DNA from: Rhizoclosmatium globosum
Taxonomy: Eukaryota > Chytridiomycota > Chytridiomycetes > Chytridiales > Chytriomycetaceae
DNA length: 64,000 nt
Assembly (NCBI GenBank): GCA_002104985.1
Contig: MCGO01000008.1
Coordinates: 372,001 to 436,000, forward strand
Reading direction: 5' to 3'
Part shown: positions 41,987 to 48,952 of the stretch, in pieces
Layout of the letters: each line of letters starts with the position of its first letter
Numbering within the stretch: position 1 is the first letter of the stretch
Made by a program: the position numbers and the translations under genes
Notes under the pieces: model-generated
Seen by the model: the letters and a program-made list of their open reading frames with translations, nothing else
What the model was told of the DNA's origin: nothing
The model's database searches: none

Positions 41987-44900
41987 TTATAACGATTCAA
42001 CGTTGACATTACCACGACCTGCCATAATCTTGACTGCCTTTCCGAACGCCTCCTTGATTCCTCCTGAATTGGCTTCCGAACGAATCAACATGCCCTTTTT
42101 GTCACCAGCATACGACACCATCTTCTGGATTTCAGCTTCTGTTCGCAACGCTCCCACCGTAATCACAATTAATCCGATATCCTTATTTTGGTGCAACACA
42201 TTCTGGATATACTGCAACGACTTTATCTTGTTCGGGCTTCCATCTTCGCCATCCGTCAAAGAGATGATCCATTTGTCACCTTTAGACTTTGGCGCTGGAG
42301 AGAGATCTTCAAGTGCATAAGCTACCGCATCGTAGAAAGCAGTTCCACCTTCTGCTTCGGTGTTGTGGTCGATTTGGTACATCATTCTCTGAAGGTCGTT
42401 CTTTTTGGTCGCATTTGTGAATACAGGTTGGAATCGGTGGTCAAACTTGATGAGAGAGATAGTATCGTCGACAGAGCAATTATCATTGATGATAGATTTG
42501 ATTGATGTTCGGCAAGTGCGAATAAATGTTCCTGACATTGAGCCTGGAAATGCAAAGGGTGAGATGCTGAGAAACATTTTAACCAGAAGGAGTATTACCT
42601 GAAGTGTCCAACACAAACGTAATATTCTTCTTAGCAGAAACTTTTTCTTCTTGTAAGTCTCCAAAGAGTGGCTGAGCCATCTTCTTCAAAGCGTCAGCAA
42701 GCTCCGGCCTGTTGACTCCCTTCATTGGATCCTTTTCAGCGCAAATCGCAATCAATCGCGTCAACACAAGCTTTTGGATAAACTTGACCACGACATTGAA
42801 CTTTTGCAGAACGTACATATACCACGTAACTGCTTCGGCAAACTTCCCTTGAGCTTCACATAGGAGTCCCATGTTCAAGCACGCGTACTGGAATGCAACT
42901 GGATCGTTGTTTCGTTTACGAACAAGGTTGAACGCATCAGTGATGAGTTCGGCAGCTTGGCCAATTTTGTTGACGCTGGGTATGAGGTATAGTTGTCCCA
43001 GATTTCCGGATACTTGAGCAATACCCTCCAAGTTGTCATTCTGTCGATGAAGAGCGAGAGACCTTTCAAAGTAAGACTCGGCATTGGACACGTCAACAGG
43101 ACTCAGAACATCATTGACTGTGTTTTCTTTGAATAACACACCCATATTGTTCAATCGATTGGCTAATACAGTTCGAAGTGCTTTTTGGGTTTCAACATCG
43201 TTTGTTGGAGTATTGAGCATGTTTGTTGCTGAAATTTAAAATGTTTAGATAACTAAAAATATGACGAAAGTTTAAGTACCAATCGCGACAGCTCGGTTAT
43301 AGGAATTGACCGCCTTCTGAAACTCTCCATCCATCAATCGGTACACGTTTCCGAGATTATTAGCGCAGACACCTTCTCCACGTTCATTATTCAATCGAAT
43401 CATCAAAGCTTCTGCAGTCAAGTAGTTATCAAGGGCAAGCATCAAGTCATCAGCATAGTACGCAGAGTTTCCAAATCTGACAGCAGTCTACACGACAGTG
43501 TTCAGTCATAAGAAACAAGGAGAACAAAGATATCTTACCAACAGGTTTTTGAAATTATCGTTCACGTTATTGAGTTCTTGAGAGAGCAGTGGACGATTTT
43601 CGAACTCAAAGTGAAGTTCATTCGAGGAAATGTTTTCAACTTTTCCACCATATTCTCTACGGGATCGATAATCTTGTGGGCTAGCTTGTTGGTAGTTCGG
43701 TAACTGATCAATGCGGCAATAGCAGTTGCGAGTGCAGTGGTTGAAACAGCCACTGAGAGCAGCGTCAAGTATGACTTATGCATGCTCGTTGACAACTCTG
43801 ATATATCAGAGTTGGGTGCGACTACAACAAGAATATGAGCTGTTGTGTTGACAGTGGCAGCCGAAAGCGTCCAAGTTGAACCATCCGGTTTCTTGAACGT
43901 TCCAGTTCTGTTGGCATCCTTGACAGTGTTCACTTGGTTCAAGAATGCGGAAGTAAGGGCGGCGTCATTGTTGAATTCAACTGCAGCAACTGTAGTCGTC
44001 ATATCTGCATTGTAAATATTGATGCTCGTTCTGGATTGCGGGTAAAGGACGATTTTTCCCTCTGTCTGTTGTGTCAACGTTAGTCAGAATAGATCATAAA
44101 TCGATTCAACATACATCGATAATGAAGATATAACCATTGTTCATAATTGGAGTGTTGGCTAACTTGTTTGCAAGTGACGAGACGAGAATCTGCAGACTGA
44201 TGACTCCATAAAACTTGCTGTTTTTGTACAGACTGATAGAGGCACCAACAAGAAGTTGTCCGGACACAGCTGCAGGATAGGGCTTCGTAAAGACAGCAGG
44301 GGTGATTCCACTTGGAGGACCAGGTTTGGAAGGAGGGTATGCGTTGATGGCAGTCAAGTAGAATTGGCGACAAAGTGGTTTAAAACCAACAGATCCACGC
44401 AATTCCGGTGCAACGTTTTCTCCGTTACAGAATGTGTTGTTGAGAGGGTTGAAGGATGCCAAATTATATACTAATGGATAGATTCTCCAACCACCATCAG
44501 GGAATCCAATCTGAATTCCTCTTACACGTGGTTGATTCACAACGGCAGCACGGAAAACATTGTCGAGATTTGCAGTGATATCTGGTTGCATCGCCTTGAA
44601 TTGGGCCAATGTTGTGATGTTCATGTTGAAGTAGGCAGATGCATCTTGTGGATTTGGAGGAAGTGGTGGATCAACGCCATCCAGCTGACCAGCAAAGTAG
44701 GATGGGTAGATTGAAGCAGTTGGCACCTTTGGATCCTCAGAAGAGCCATCTAGGCCGAGCACGTCGCGTGCCTGGGTGGCAGCAGCAGTGATTTGAACGG
44801 CAAAGTCTGAGAAGATGTTGTCGACGAGTCTGAGACAAGTGGGTTAGGGTTGGGTTGAAAGTGGGTGACACTCTATGAACCGAGCTTACTTTGCGGCACC

Positions 44901-45074
44901 GGCAGCATTGCTTCCAAAGTGGGCGTACTCGTTTGTCTCGAGTTGGGCCTGGATTCCGTCAATCTCGCCAGGGACTTTGGCAAAGAAGACGGTCATTGCG
45001 CTGAGGCCAATCAGAAGGAAGCCAAGGACAATCGGGGCAACGAGTCTGGCCAGGATCTGCTGAGAGAACTTCAT
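41987..45074 (-). CDS. dCache-HAMP-TPR-vWA receptor-like protein, copy 2
   Basis: Tandem paralogue of the gene at 38492-41570 with the same layout. It has a signal anchor (LVAPIVLGFLLIGLSAMTVF), a dCache ectodomain almost identical at DNA level, and a second helix (LLSVAVSTTALATAIAALIS) followed by a HAMP-like segment (LAHKIIDPVENMVEKLK). TPR-like repeats come next, then a vWA domain with an intact MIDAS: FVLDTSG joins SMSGT across a 3' intron, with TAFYDAVAYAL and SLTDGEDGSPN. The end is again AGRGNVNVESL. One frame break lies near 43640 in the HAMP segment. The vWA half differs far more from copy 1 than the dCache exon does. It is probably a receptor whose cytoplasmic vWA recruits a partner. 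Confidence 0.8.
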
Positions 45075-45464
45075 CCTTCTTTTTGGTGTGTCAATCGATC
45101 AAGGGCGATTTCAGAGGTTTAAATGAAGGGAGGCCTAGTCCGCCTACTATTATTTTCAGAGACGAAGAACATTCATCTTCGGTTTGTCTTTGCCGATCTT
45201 GACCACATGTCATGGGCGAATGGCCAAATGGTTACCGCGCTCGACTATGAATCAAGAGGTTCTAGGTTCGTCCCCTGGTACAGATCCTGTTGCTGAGAGG
45301 AAGAAAGCCGGAAAAACTCCGGGTAAACCCCAACGGAAAATGAGATCAGATAAAAAAGATAACAGTGTGAAAATTGCATTCGAGAAAAAAACACGAGCCA
45401 ACTGATGAGGCCTTGCCTCCTATCTATTCTTCTCATTCTTTTGGTCGCCACTTCTGTCATTCAT
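45075..45464. other. Intergenic region left of the Fanzor gene
   Basis: This 390-bp stretch contains the upstream region of the vWA receptor, a tRNA-like sequence (45213-45292) and the leader of the Fanzor gene. I found no convincing terminal inverted repeat or target-site duplication by eye. Confidence 0.4.
45213..45292 (+). other. tRNA-like sequence with pol III A and B boxes
   Basis: It contains an A-box-like TGGCCAAATGG (45221-45231) and a B-box-like GGTTCGTCCCC (45265-45275) at tRNA spacing. An anticodon arm CTCGA-CTATGAA-TCAAG (one mispair) and a T arm CTAGG-TTCGTCC-CCTGG can be drawn. The acceptor arm does not pair and the anticodon loop would give ATG, so it is not a normal tRNA. It looks like a decayed tRNA or the head of a tRNA-derived SINE, and it lies about 170 bp left of the Fanzor coding start. 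Confidence 0.45.
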
Positions 45465-48400
45465 ATGGCTCAAAACAACTTCCATCGCACTCGCCATGTT
45501 GGAGCAAGACAAGCTACTCGACCAGAACTACGTTGTGTAATGGGGCCACTCTTACAAGAGTTTGCAAGAAATGTGTCCCTCCTACGCTCCGATGCCATGC
45601 TTGCAATCAACCTTCACCTAGAGCGCAACCCAACTGGTATTTAACAGCTCAAATTAATATCGTTTAAATTCATTGGGACTTAAAATTAGGTCACGATCAT
45701 CTTGACATTGAGTTTTCAGAATCCTTCTTCCAATTTGCACTCAAGTATGCTTCTGGAAATCTGCTCGCCAATAATTATCATGCCCCACTTCCAATTGGTT
45801 TTGTACTTCCTGGCAATCCTGTTGGCACACCCTACATCCTTCCAGTTGGTGCAGCCCTTCAGGCACACCAAAACACCCGCCGTTCTGTCACAAGACATTA
45901 CTTGTTGGAAACTTTCCAAAACTTTCATCATCCATTTAGTTGTGACAACAATGGTTTTCAGAATGGACAACCCATCCAACCTGGTCTTCGAATGGTTCCC
46001 CTCTTTAACTGTCCCAGCTATGAATGGGAGCAAGTTATTGCCATTGAAGCCAAACGATTGCGTACAGACTTTGAAAATGCACTTGCTCGCAGATTCATTG
46101 CCAATTTAGGCAAGCTGGCTGAGGAGGTTTGTTGATCTTGTCTGAAATTTACTTTAAATCTTACAACATAATTCAGGTTTTCAACTTTCATTGCTTCCTG
46201 CATGGATACCAACCTACCGCTGTTATCAAGGCAACTGCAAAGACAGCAATATACAATTACCTGACCCCACCATTTGGTGCCCCACTTGCACTTCCTGTAG
46301 CAGTTCCACAGGCAGTGACCAACAATATTGTTGCATTTCTTCTCCATCACAGACAGTTTCTTGTTGCCATGCCCTTCAATAACATTCAGCGTGGCCCACA
46401 CTTTGAAATGAATCTTATTAGGGCAATGTCAAGAATGGGCAATAATATTTTGGCTTATACCAGAGAGTAAGTTTTTATCTGTCAAGCCTTCATTTGCTAA
46501 TTTCAAACATACTACCATTGAAACAGTTTTATTCGCCCAGATATGGCACTCCTTGGAAGTGAAGCTTATTTTCCTCTTGCACCACTTCCAACCAATGCTA
46601 CCACGGCTCAAGCAGTCTTTTGTGGGATAGACTATCGTGTTCTATGTCAATATTTTATGCCACGACTGAGGGACCTTTTGGGGCCTCTTGCTGTTCCACT
46701 TCCTCAACCACCAGGTGGAGTTAACTTTCCACCTTCACTTGTAGCTGCTGCTGCACATTTCCAGCACATCATTGTACCTGCATTGGGAATAATTAGTCCA
46801 CCAAATGGGGTTGGAAGATACAATGGTCATGGAGGGACTCGAGCTGAACATCGTGGCATAATTGGACTGTTTTTTCGAGTTGAATCTGTTCGCTGGAGTC
46901 GCCACTTGAGGAATGATGTTGATTGTATGTAAAACTTTATTGCATTGAATAATTCTAAAGGGCCCTAGCTTCATATTATCTTCAAACTGATGGCAGAAGC
47001 TTTTCATGGACTCTGAATACCAGACAAGCCTTTGTTCAGAACAATCTTGCAGCAAATGCCAACAGAGTTCCTCACAAAAGTTGGACTGATGATGCAAATT
47101 CACTCCCACAAAATTATAACTATAACCAATTCATGATAAATGGTCGTGGAATGGTGCGTGTGGATCATCACATAAACAATATGGGAATTGTGAATCAAAT
47201 TCAAGCTGGAATCTTGGATCCTCACAATGTTATTAGTGTTGACCCAGGTTTGATTTCTGTGTTTGGCTTACTAAATCAGCTTCTAATATTTATTTTACCT
47301 ATTTAGGTATCAGGAATGTTGTAACTTGTGTCAATAGTGATATCCAGCTCCAAATCAACAATGCTGCTGTTGCTCCAGTTCCAGTACCTCCGCCTGCACA
47401 TCCTCCATCACGACAAATTATTCATGACCACGTTGTTCAGGTTTCCCATGGTCATATGCGTCAAATCAATGGTTCTAAGCTCTCTGAAAAGAGGGAAGAG
47501 GTGTTCCGAGACAATGATCACCGCATCAACTTTGCATATGATGTCCTTGCTCAAAATTCTCCACGTGTTATTGGTCAACGTACACTGGGTCATTGGTGTC
47601 AATGGACCTGGATGGTCAAGCATTTCCAGTCAGAATTCTTGTTGCAAGAGTATTCTCGTCCCCAGCATCTAAAGTGGAAGCAGAGCAGTCGTATGAAACA
47701 CCAGCGGGCTGAACAAGCTCTCATCAATCGTATGGCTGGGCGCATGACAGACACTGATTGGAACAGTATGCAAGGCAGGATTGTTCCTGGAGCAAGAAAA
47801 CTCCGCCGTCGAACACGCCGCTTGAATAATATTCCAGCTTTTCCTGTTGCACCAGTCTATTTTGCTTATGGCGATGGATCTTGGAATCACCAGAGACCAT
47901 GGGCACCTGTTCCCAACAATGTCAGTTTAACGCAATGGTTGGCAATACTAAATATGTGTTTTTCACACAGAGAATCAGAGAAAAGGCTGCTCATGAGCAC
48001 TTTGTGTTTGTTATTGATGAGCATTTGACTTCACAGCGGTCCCATCGTCTCAGTGCTGGCTATGAGGCAGGAGGTGTGTTCCAATATCCACCAGTTGTGA
48101 CAGTAAGTAATCAACAAAGTAAGTCTTACATTAATGTTGGACTAGGTTCGACGTCCTATTCTTAGATGCCCCCACAAGAAACGCAAGTTTCAGGATCTTC
48201 ACTGGAGAAAATACTGCATTGATGATGACAAACAACCAATGCATCCCTTTGTTCAATGCCCTGATCTTACTAACATCCAGAGTTCAGTTTATGGTCTTGT
48301 TGAGTGCCCACTCATTCCAGGACCCCCTACTGTATGTATGCTTGTGACTGGTACCAGCACTAACATTTGTTGCTAAGATTGTGGACAAAGATATTCAAGC

Positions 48401-48470
48401 TGCATGCAACATTCGCCACTTGCTGTTTCATTACAATCATACTGGTGGTCGACCTGCAGCTTTCATTTAA
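45465..48470 (+). CDS. Fanzor, eukaryotic TnpB-like RNA-guided nuclease homologue
   Basis: Nine exons (45465-45636, 45690-46126, 46177-46466, 46527-46924, 46969-47247, 47307-47920, 47971-48102, 48146-48331, 48378-48470), all with GT-AG introns, join into one open frame of 866 residues. RuvC-I is SVDPGIRNVVTCV (D524). RuvC-II is FVIDEHLTSQRSH (E747). RuvC-III is VDKDIQAACNI (D841), followed by a GGRPAAF end typical of Fanzors. D524 to the TS pair at 750-751 spans 225 residues, as in the family. A TDGRSFSW strand, LKWKQSSRMKHQRAEQALIN helices and a YGDGSW motif also fit. The zinc-finger cysteines are atypical. An alternative ATG at 45405 adds 20 mostly hydrophobic residues. Fanzors cut DNA guided by an RNA encoded at or beyond the 3' end of the gene; activity here is inferred. 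Confidence 0.85.
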
Positions 48471-48952
48471 CAGCCCTGGATACATTCCTGATTAACAATA
48501 CAAAGAAATTTGGTATGGCCTTGCTTTCCTTATGGCATAATTCTAATTATTTTTTACAGGTATGTTTTTTTCTTTTACCTTTTGTTTTTTTTTAATGTTC
48601 TTCTAAAATGTTAAATACAGTAATCGAATTCTGGTCGAATTCTGAGGCGCGTGCTGGTTTTTCTTTTCTCATTCGGCGTCGGACTTTCACAGCCGTGACT
48701 CATCAAATGCACCGTATTAATATCAGCCCCTTCTTTCTTTCCTTCTTTAATGTCGTTAGTTGTTGCCTCAGTGAATTTATTAAATAACTACTGCCAGTAG
48801 TACCCAGAACTCCTTGACTCTAAAACATATTTGATATGTCTCTCTTCCCATTTTCCATCAGTTCTTACAAAGTTCCTCTCTATGCATTAATCCATTATTG
48901 GATTTTCCACTTAGTGATTTCTGAACAAACAAGGCAAGACACAACAACAACA
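48471..48952. other. Fanzor 3' flank and upstream region of the IQ-CH-DH gene
   Basis: This 482-bp stretch begins with AT-rich sequence that continues past the Fanzor stop, where a guide RNA would be expected by analogy to known Fanzors. The shared element (48637-48681) comes next, then the leader of the next gene. An open frame from 48836 runs in phase into the downstream start codon but looks like leader sequence. Confidence 0.4.
48637..48681 (+). repeat. Shared upstream element, copy B
   Basis: Second copy of the element at 36523-36560. The part GAATTCTGAGGCGCGTGCTG is followed by GTTTTT, a 9-base insertion relative to copy A, then TCGGCGTCG. It lies about 270 bp upstream of the IQ-CH-DH start codon. 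The EcoRI-like GAATTC is itself repeated just before it (48626 and 48637). Confidence 0.6.

Follow-up and report, generated by a model that had tools for sequence, protein, structure and literature searches.

Does a nine-exon gene of the zoosporic fungus Rhizoclosmatium globosum encode an intact Fanzor, a eukaryotic homologue of the RNA-guided nuclease TnpB, and is it part of a mobile element? The sample is the R. globosum genome (56.9 Mb, 420 contigs, designated by C numbers), to which the window, the whole stretch of 64,000 nucleotides analyzed from contig MCGO01000008.1 (assembly GCA_002104985.1), contributes the Fanzor-like gene locus. A sequence-only reading had proposed such a nuclease in a zoosporic fungus, as the host indeed is, and had described Fanzors as domesticated or mobile; here the mobile option is the right one, the gene forming part of a transposable element. 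The analysis finds a real gene in a transposon family of recent activity, and the locus is probably a recently active, non-autonomous, TA-inserting transposon with a diverged Fanzor1-like nuclease, a DDE_1 mover, a flank-derived guide and the motif CCTA. The transposon, its copies and its ends were absent from the sequence-only reading, yet they are better evidence than the features of the gene.

The gene and the transposon around it

The gene and a possible second start codon are located as follows.

45465 to 48470, + strand: Fanzor-like gene, nine exons, 866 residues
45405 to 45407, + strand: alternative upstream start codon, from the deposited gene model (P0001) of a sister copy

The nine exons (45465-45636, 45690-46126, 46177-46466, 46527-46924, 46969-47247, 47307-47920, 47971-48102, 48146-48331 and 48378-48470) join into 2601 nt that encode 866 residues and a stop codon, and every one of the eight introns (43-60 nt) is bounded by GT..AG. 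Rejoining thus bore out the complete, spliced nine-exon frame without a break that had been drawn from the letters, with D524, E747 and D841 at the positions assigned to them. P0001 (BCR33DRAFT_848342, "hypothetical protein" of R. globosum), the deposited model of sister copy L048 on contig C24, agrees with the window protein over residues 1-725 except for S167G, so that introns 1-5 have been drawn alike by an independent annotation; the check covers introns 1-5, introns 6-8 falling in the internal deletion of L048. P0001 starts 20 residues further upstream, at ATG 45405.

The transposon occupies 45147-48620 (45143-48622 with its target bases, a 3.48-kb unit) and carries this gene only, with no transposase. 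Its ends are the following.

45143 to 45144, + strand: CC, target-site dinucleotide and predicted half of the transposon-adjacent motif (TAM), outside the element; CC in 17 of 18 copies and in the unoccupied alleles L059 and L060
45145 to 45146, + strand: left TA of the 2-bp target-site duplication; single TA in the unoccupied sites L059 and L060
45145 to 45173, + strand: left terminal inverted repeat, 29 bp including TA, ending in an exact GAAGAACATT; pattern match at C399:417145
48594 to 48622, + strand: right terminal inverted repeat including TA; pattern match at C399:420598
48621 to 48622, + strand: right TA of the target-site duplication, from the unoccupied alleles

A protein search of the genome found many copies, and 25 loci were fetched, 18 of which (L031-L048; the window copy is L036) match the unit 45143-48622 at about 99.1-99.8% between unrelated flanks. 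Seven divergent or broken loci (L049-L055) were left out of the 18, and the weaker matches in the genome are older, decayed relatives. The frame is open to its end in 15 of the 18 near-identical copies (L035 has a stop, L043 a frameshift and L048 its deletion), and therefore the 866-residue frame is beyond chance. Fourteen copies combine the open frame with all splice sites; L032 has an open frame, but 21 bp of its intron 7, including part of the acceptor, are gone. L031 contains an insertion of ~0.2 kb, and the protein of L047 is two residues shorter.

The copies start with CCTA in 17 of 18 cases (the exception is L035) and end with CAGTA in all 18, between terminal inverted repeats that are imperfect (19 of 29 positions match). 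Outside the element, CC precedes 154 of the 4990 TA dinucleotides of the window (3.1%, both strands), and the right flanks of the 18 copies show no bias comparable to the CC on the left. A genome search with the joined flanks of the 18 copies identified two unoccupied sites, one for the insertion of the window (C170) and one for that of L040 (C290), and in both a CCTA stands between the two flanks; next to L044, a tandem duplicate is a third site with a single TA (GATTAACCTATCA). Because the unoccupied sites contain CCTA once, TA is the target-site duplication and CC is part of the target, as in TA-inserting DNA transposons of the Tc1/mariner/pogo type. The single CCTA rules out an element without target duplication, which was the first reading of the ends, as well as a Helitron or IS605-like insertion.

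On either side of the insertion point, C170 matches the window at 99% identity (2,643 bp to the left, 2,641 bp to the right). Two near-identical haplotypes or duplicates evidently differ by the insertion, which one has and the other lacks, and its movement must be recent, given a second contig of 99% identity without it. The empty allele of C170 has a 17-bp gap that spans positions 2 to 18 to the right of the TA, and the two flanks show net length differences of 1 and 2 bp. The empty allele of C290 is missing one base at position 6; its overall identity is 95%, and several substitutions lie on its left side. The gene to the left of the transposon has relatives of 76-77% identity nearby and on other contigs. 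For the stretches concerned (window 42500-45142, C170, C399:411259, C399:499236 and C207), the assembly seems to hold second haplotypes or recent duplicates in two cases, C170 with C399 and C207 with a different part of C399.

CpG sites, of which the 17-copy consensus has 72, hold 25 of the 40 C-to-T or G-to-A differences from that consensus (L048 left out; cells counted, not independent events), an excess that points to cytosine methylation of the element.

Related elements and the candidate mover

The right end of the transposon, from the stop codon to the edge, recurs at 93-96% identity in three ghost elements of ~835 bp (C157, C235 and C391), which have a different left part and retain a trace of the final coding exon; CCTA stands at the left end of all three. 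The left 640 bp of the ghosts resemble (76-82%) repeats on C1, C2, C63, C221 and C372, termed repeats X here; no Fanzor right end was matched at these five places, and CC stands at none of the three left ends that were read. Upstream of the ghost on C235 is an open stretch (L056, C235:330000-331300) that reads like what we take to be a bZIP basic region.

The pattern of the terminal repeat, TACWRTNNTN10GAAGAA, has 74 matches in the genome versus 19 for the reversed pattern, and by our count 44 of the 74 are ends of the families described above, which leaves 30 versus 19 in the control. With so mild an enrichment the pattern proves little by itself and position says more; the count weakens only the argument from the repeat pattern and leaves the DDE_1 spacing unaffected. 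Two inverted pairs are found among the 30 matches (C399:330117-340407, ~10.3 kb; C89:41536-51286, 9.8 kb). At three places the DDE_1 transposase domain, with 29 matches genome-wide, sits inward of a repeat in the right orientation (by 1070 bp at C399, 1073 bp at C89 and 1072 bp at C201), and two of these three placements (C399 and C89) fall within the ~10-kb inverted pairs, elements compared by repeat pattern rather than by full repeat. At C410 the spacing agrees only on the assumption of a left end that the pattern failed to match. Judging from these repeats, the likely mover is a ~10-kb pogo-type (DDE_1) element with the same pattern, whose transposase would act on the window transposon in trans.

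Other candidate partners were set aside: at C334 the pattern match (94196) is ~1 kb from a DDE_1 domain (95217) in the wrong orientation and was not counted, and none of 19 DDE_3 matches lies inside the two ~10-kb inverted pairs. The ~10-kb stretches of C399 and C89 have DDE_1 near one end and ~8 kb more beside it. A DDE_1 frame begins 1 kb downstream of L032 (C334:281899-282444), at a spacing unlike that of the shared-pattern family.

The closest known parallel is SpuFz1 of Spizellomyces punctatus, the element of which is described as having ~30-nt repeats, a conserved CA just upstream, and ghost loci with the same dinucleotide and right end; its RNA consists of a 75-nt scaffold and 14-15 nt of flank (PMC10432273), and its TAM is CATA. 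By analogy with the CA and the TAM of SpuFz1, CCTA is the predicted TAM of the R. globosum element. The CC might instead be a target preference of the transposase, insertion at TA simply favouring CCTA, an explanation that we consider rather unlikely. Transposases do have local preferences; the bias here, however, is one-sided and oriented with the Fanzor gene, CC is found at 0 of 3 left ends of repeats X (the ends of which differ, TACAGTG, and may belong to another transposase), and SpuFz1 shows the same arrangement together with a measured TAM.

Probable kinship of the encoded protein with Fanzor

The three acidic residues assigned to a RuvC domain are encoded by the following codons of the joined frame.

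47241 to 47243, + strand: codon of D524, DPG motif, RuvC-I
48019 to 48021, + strand: codon of E747; S754-H-R-L757 follows six residues on, in place of the expected C-x-x-C (spacing rule of PMC10711439)
48390 to 48392, + strand: codon of D841 in KDIQAACNI, RuvC-III

The Fanzor fingerprint given in PMC10711439 is DPG at RuvC-I with a glutamate six residues before the zinc finger, a combination found in <1% of TnpB relatives; the same source ascribes a C4 zinc finger to "many" Fanzor members and uses a narrower search rule, D..x(120-160)..E. The Fanzor motif of Bao and Jurka, as given in PMC3627910, specifies the spacing D-X(125,275)-[TS][TS] and includes the C4 zinc finger. The window protein has D524-P-G at RuvC-I, and the 225 residues between D524 and T750-S751, which the sequence-only reading had called the family spacing, lie within the range of PMC3627910, whereas the 222 residues from D524 to E747 exceed the narrower rule. 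E747 fits the six-residue position, but the defining C-x-x-C is replaced by S754-H-R-L757. At RuvC-III, where RD is the rule, the protein has KD followed by IQAACNI.

Several results weigh against a Fanzor. There is no C-x-x-C between S751 and D841, and thus no C4 zinc finger, although the stretch still contains four cysteines and several histidines, with which another zinc site is possible. The C4 zinc finger is missing from every copy with readable residues: the first pair reads S..L in the divergent copies L049, L050 and L053, only the S is readable in L052, the pair is unreadable in L051 and L054, and an old copy (L072) reads S-H-C-L. The sequence-only reading had named the lack of a match to Fanzor or TnpB profiles as refuting, and none of the libraries scanned (Pfam, NCBIfam and PHROGs) gave a significant one. 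Searched with the whole protein, Pfam gave only OrfB_IS605 (E 0.73; 10.5 bits versus a cut-off of 30.5) over residues 517-545, where RuvC-I should be, and with the C-terminal 349 residues NCBIfam and PHROGs gave no family. Searches of the PDB with the whole protein and three pieces of it returned nothing beyond two weak, unrelated matches (E 0.049 and 1.6), and no chain of TnpB, Fanzor or Cas12 was among them. Among 5.8 billion proteins, P0001 was the sole relative of the whole protein (7992 candidates scored, their number being capped) and again of residues 500-866 (1821 candidates scored), in word-based searches that detect only relatives with common short exact words. The structure predicted for the truncated sister P0001, without an alignment, is uninformative (predicted local distance difference test score 31.7). 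The ratio of replacement to silent substitution rates (dN/dS) is about 0.8 to 3.9 in all six old copies, which indicates no purifying selection and is as expected for dead copies.

To our knowledge, the libraries scanned hold no dedicated Fanzor1 profile (they were not checked for one), and the profile negatives are accordingly weak evidence against a Fanzor. No match to a zinc-ribbon TnpB was found elsewhere in the genome. As bridges for a profile, a cyanobacterial "pro-Fanzor" candidate (Scytonema plasmid) was dropped for reading DLG instead of DPG, and the E. coli InsQ and Aneurinibacillus loci that were examined yielded no Fanzor sequence. On its motifs, the protein is likely a highly diverged Fanzor1-like RuvC nuclease; Fanzor identity is not proven. 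It is filed as Fanzor-like, strict membership being unproven because a listed feature, the C4 zinc finger, was looked for and is absent. Thus, mobility, completeness, splicing, DPG and the displaced glutamate uphold the initial Fanzor interpretation in part, and the profile matches and the C4 zinc finger are lacking from it. The reading most favoured for the locus is that of a divergent Fanzor1 system, for which the predicted TAM is CCTA.

Alternatively, the protein could be a degenerate passenger of TnpB/Fanzor fold without RNA-guided cutting, its copies spread by a transposase in trans and its frames intact from recency. The zinc finger is lost, the copies differ by so few bases that intact frames need no selection, and the coding changes of the 18 copies (15 replacement and 9 silent, versus 23% silent expected with transitions unweighted) leave selection unclear. 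Nevertheless, the three acidic residues and the position of the glutamate are kept, a transposase acting alone would hardly produce the strictly left-sided CC of 17 among the 18 copies, and the right end is kept in the ghosts; we judge a mere passenger distinctly improbable. That the protein is a new kind of transposase is less probable still: no relatives beyond its own genome turned up in the protein searches and its gene is the sole gene of the element, but it has Fanzor-like motifs, a DDE_1 transposase lies inside elements of the same pattern, and ghosts without the gene occupy three sites. A Fanzor1-like nuclease with the acidic triad and without the zinc finger would test how much of the fold is needed.

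The right end, the predicted guide and known systems

The right end of the element and the adjoining host flank contain the following features.

48471 to 48512, + strand: 3' noncoding exon-like stretch, candidate guide-RNA scaffold, common to the ghost elements
48513 to 48559, + strand: intron-like unit 1, 47 nt, GTATGG..CTAAT..ACAG, from sequence signals and shuffles
48560 to 48620, + strand: intron-like unit 2, 61 nt, GTATGT..CTAAA..ACAG, removed in the deposited L048 model; also from shuffles
48623 to 48642, + strand: host flank, predicted guide of the window copy by the arrangement of SpuFz1; C170 has its 17-bp gap here

The right end would yield a guide RNA, the guide being the first host bases beyond the TA, so that each copy would be programmed against its own empty site, with CCTA just before the target. 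Cutting of the empty site would lead repair to copy the element back, and excised copies would not be lost, as described for bacterial TnpB. The predicted guide target is altered in both of the unoccupied alleles, which, two cases being few, is a lead only.

The right end looks like an intron that ends at the last base of the element, a feature new here. Each intron-like unit has a donor, a branch-like site (CTAAT or CTAAA) and ACAG, and unit 2 has its acceptor at the final base of the element. Of 20,000 dinucleotide shuffles that kept the last 10 nt, 9 produced the terminal intron and none the double one; with 27 nt of the repeat fixed, 20,000 shuffles produced the donor 51 times, AG|GT 3 times and the double arrangement never, in tests devised after sight of the sequence and with a final AG that belongs to the inverted repeat. 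Independently of the shuffles, the P0001 model removes exactly the 61-nt unit and runs on into the TA and the host flank. This splice yields the tail of the model letter for letter, and an unspliced reading fails to do so. P0001 is a deposited gene model, which may or may not rest on RNA reads.

It is possible, though doubtful, that the guide RNA is matured by the spliceosome, splicing from 48513 joining the scaffold to the TA and the host flank, either directly or in two steps via the AG|GT site at 48559/48560. Joining 48512 to the TA creates a 6-bp hairpin (UACAAA-GAAA-UUUG^UA) closed by the TA right before the guide, and only 48513 of the seven GT sites between 48440 and 48600 yields it. 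A 6-bp stem arose in 1,059 of 50,000 shuffles, and one with a GNRA loop in 9 of 50,000. When 16 nt of its own flank are appended to each copy, the inner pairs of the hairpin keep a probability >0.5 in 16 of 18 copies, the exceptions being L036, the window copy (about 0.4-0.5), and L041 (0). The folding energy of the right-end RNA is not better than that of shuffles, nor is that of the 5' stretch, and Rfam at its gathering threshold found nothing in the window; the first and last of these count against the proposed explanation of the locus. If spliced guides are made, the transposon writes its insertion site into RNA by splicing, a new way of making a guide, and the small gaps in the guide target of the empty alleles (17 bp for C170 and 1 bp for C290) would represent scars of cutting, as in gene-drive resistance. 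Among the matches listed in a search for Fanzor and splicing, no title or abstract opening names a spliced guide RNA.

The element resembles SpuFz1/SPu-1 in its chytrid host, ~30-bp inverted repeats, TA duplication (putative for SPu-1; PMC3627910), single gene and many copies, in the conserved dinucleotide just outside the left repeat (CA in SPu-1, CC in R. globosum), and in ghosts with the same right end. It differs in encoding 866 residues in nine exons, as against 633 residues in one open reading frame of SPu-1, in having no Fanzor match in the PDB and no C4 zinc finger, and in its tRNA-derived 5' stretch and intron-like right end. Like the Fanzor1 Tc/mariner elements PUl-4 and PGv-1, it places a Fanzor in a TA-duplicating element (PMC3627910); the repeats of PUl-4 are reported there to be identical to those of confirmed Mariner members, whereas the likely partner in R. 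globosum, compared by repeat pattern alone, is ~10 kb long and has DDE_1 (pogo-type). With the TnpB of bacterial IS605/IS607 it would share a flank-derived guide and a TAM, both predicted here, and bacterial TnpB is described as causing a gene-drive-like retention of its element (PMC11870625). Typical of TnpB are D-hydrophobic-G and a glutamate that precedes the zinc finger by about 50 residues (PMC10711439), unlike the window protein, with which no TnpB profile reaches its cut-off. A description of the element was not found in the open-licence papers searched, supplements lying outside the search. The element would stand as a second chytrid system, its TAM being independent, beside the one underlying much work on eukaryotic RNA-guided nucleases, and occupied and empty alleles in one assembly, together with a likely transposase partner, make the role of a Fanzor for its transposon testable in a single organism.

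Between the left repeat and the gene lies one further feature.

45209 to 45296, + strand: tRNA-Arg(ACG)-derived stretch, possible promoter for RNA polymerase III; identity to a host tRNA-Arg gene, 87%

The identity extends over 86 nt, and the acceptor end is lost; ARAGORN did not call the stretch a tRNA and called no tRNA in the window. It contains what we take to be an A-box and a B-box-like sequence, and it is found in all 18 near-identical copies and in the divergent L050, with deletions of 17 and 13 bp in or just after it in L042 and L046, respectively. The stretch could be an RNA polymerase III promoter for an RNA of ~230 nt, a function that is a guess. Polymerase III would terminate at the run of nine T in the right end, and hence a flank-bearing guide should come from polymerase II. 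L031 (C367) carries an insert of ~207 bp where the tRNA-derived stretch starts, directly after the counterpart of window position 45214; the insert is flanked by a ~10-bp repeat (ACATGTCATG) and is an unrelated small element just upstream of the tRNA-like sequence.

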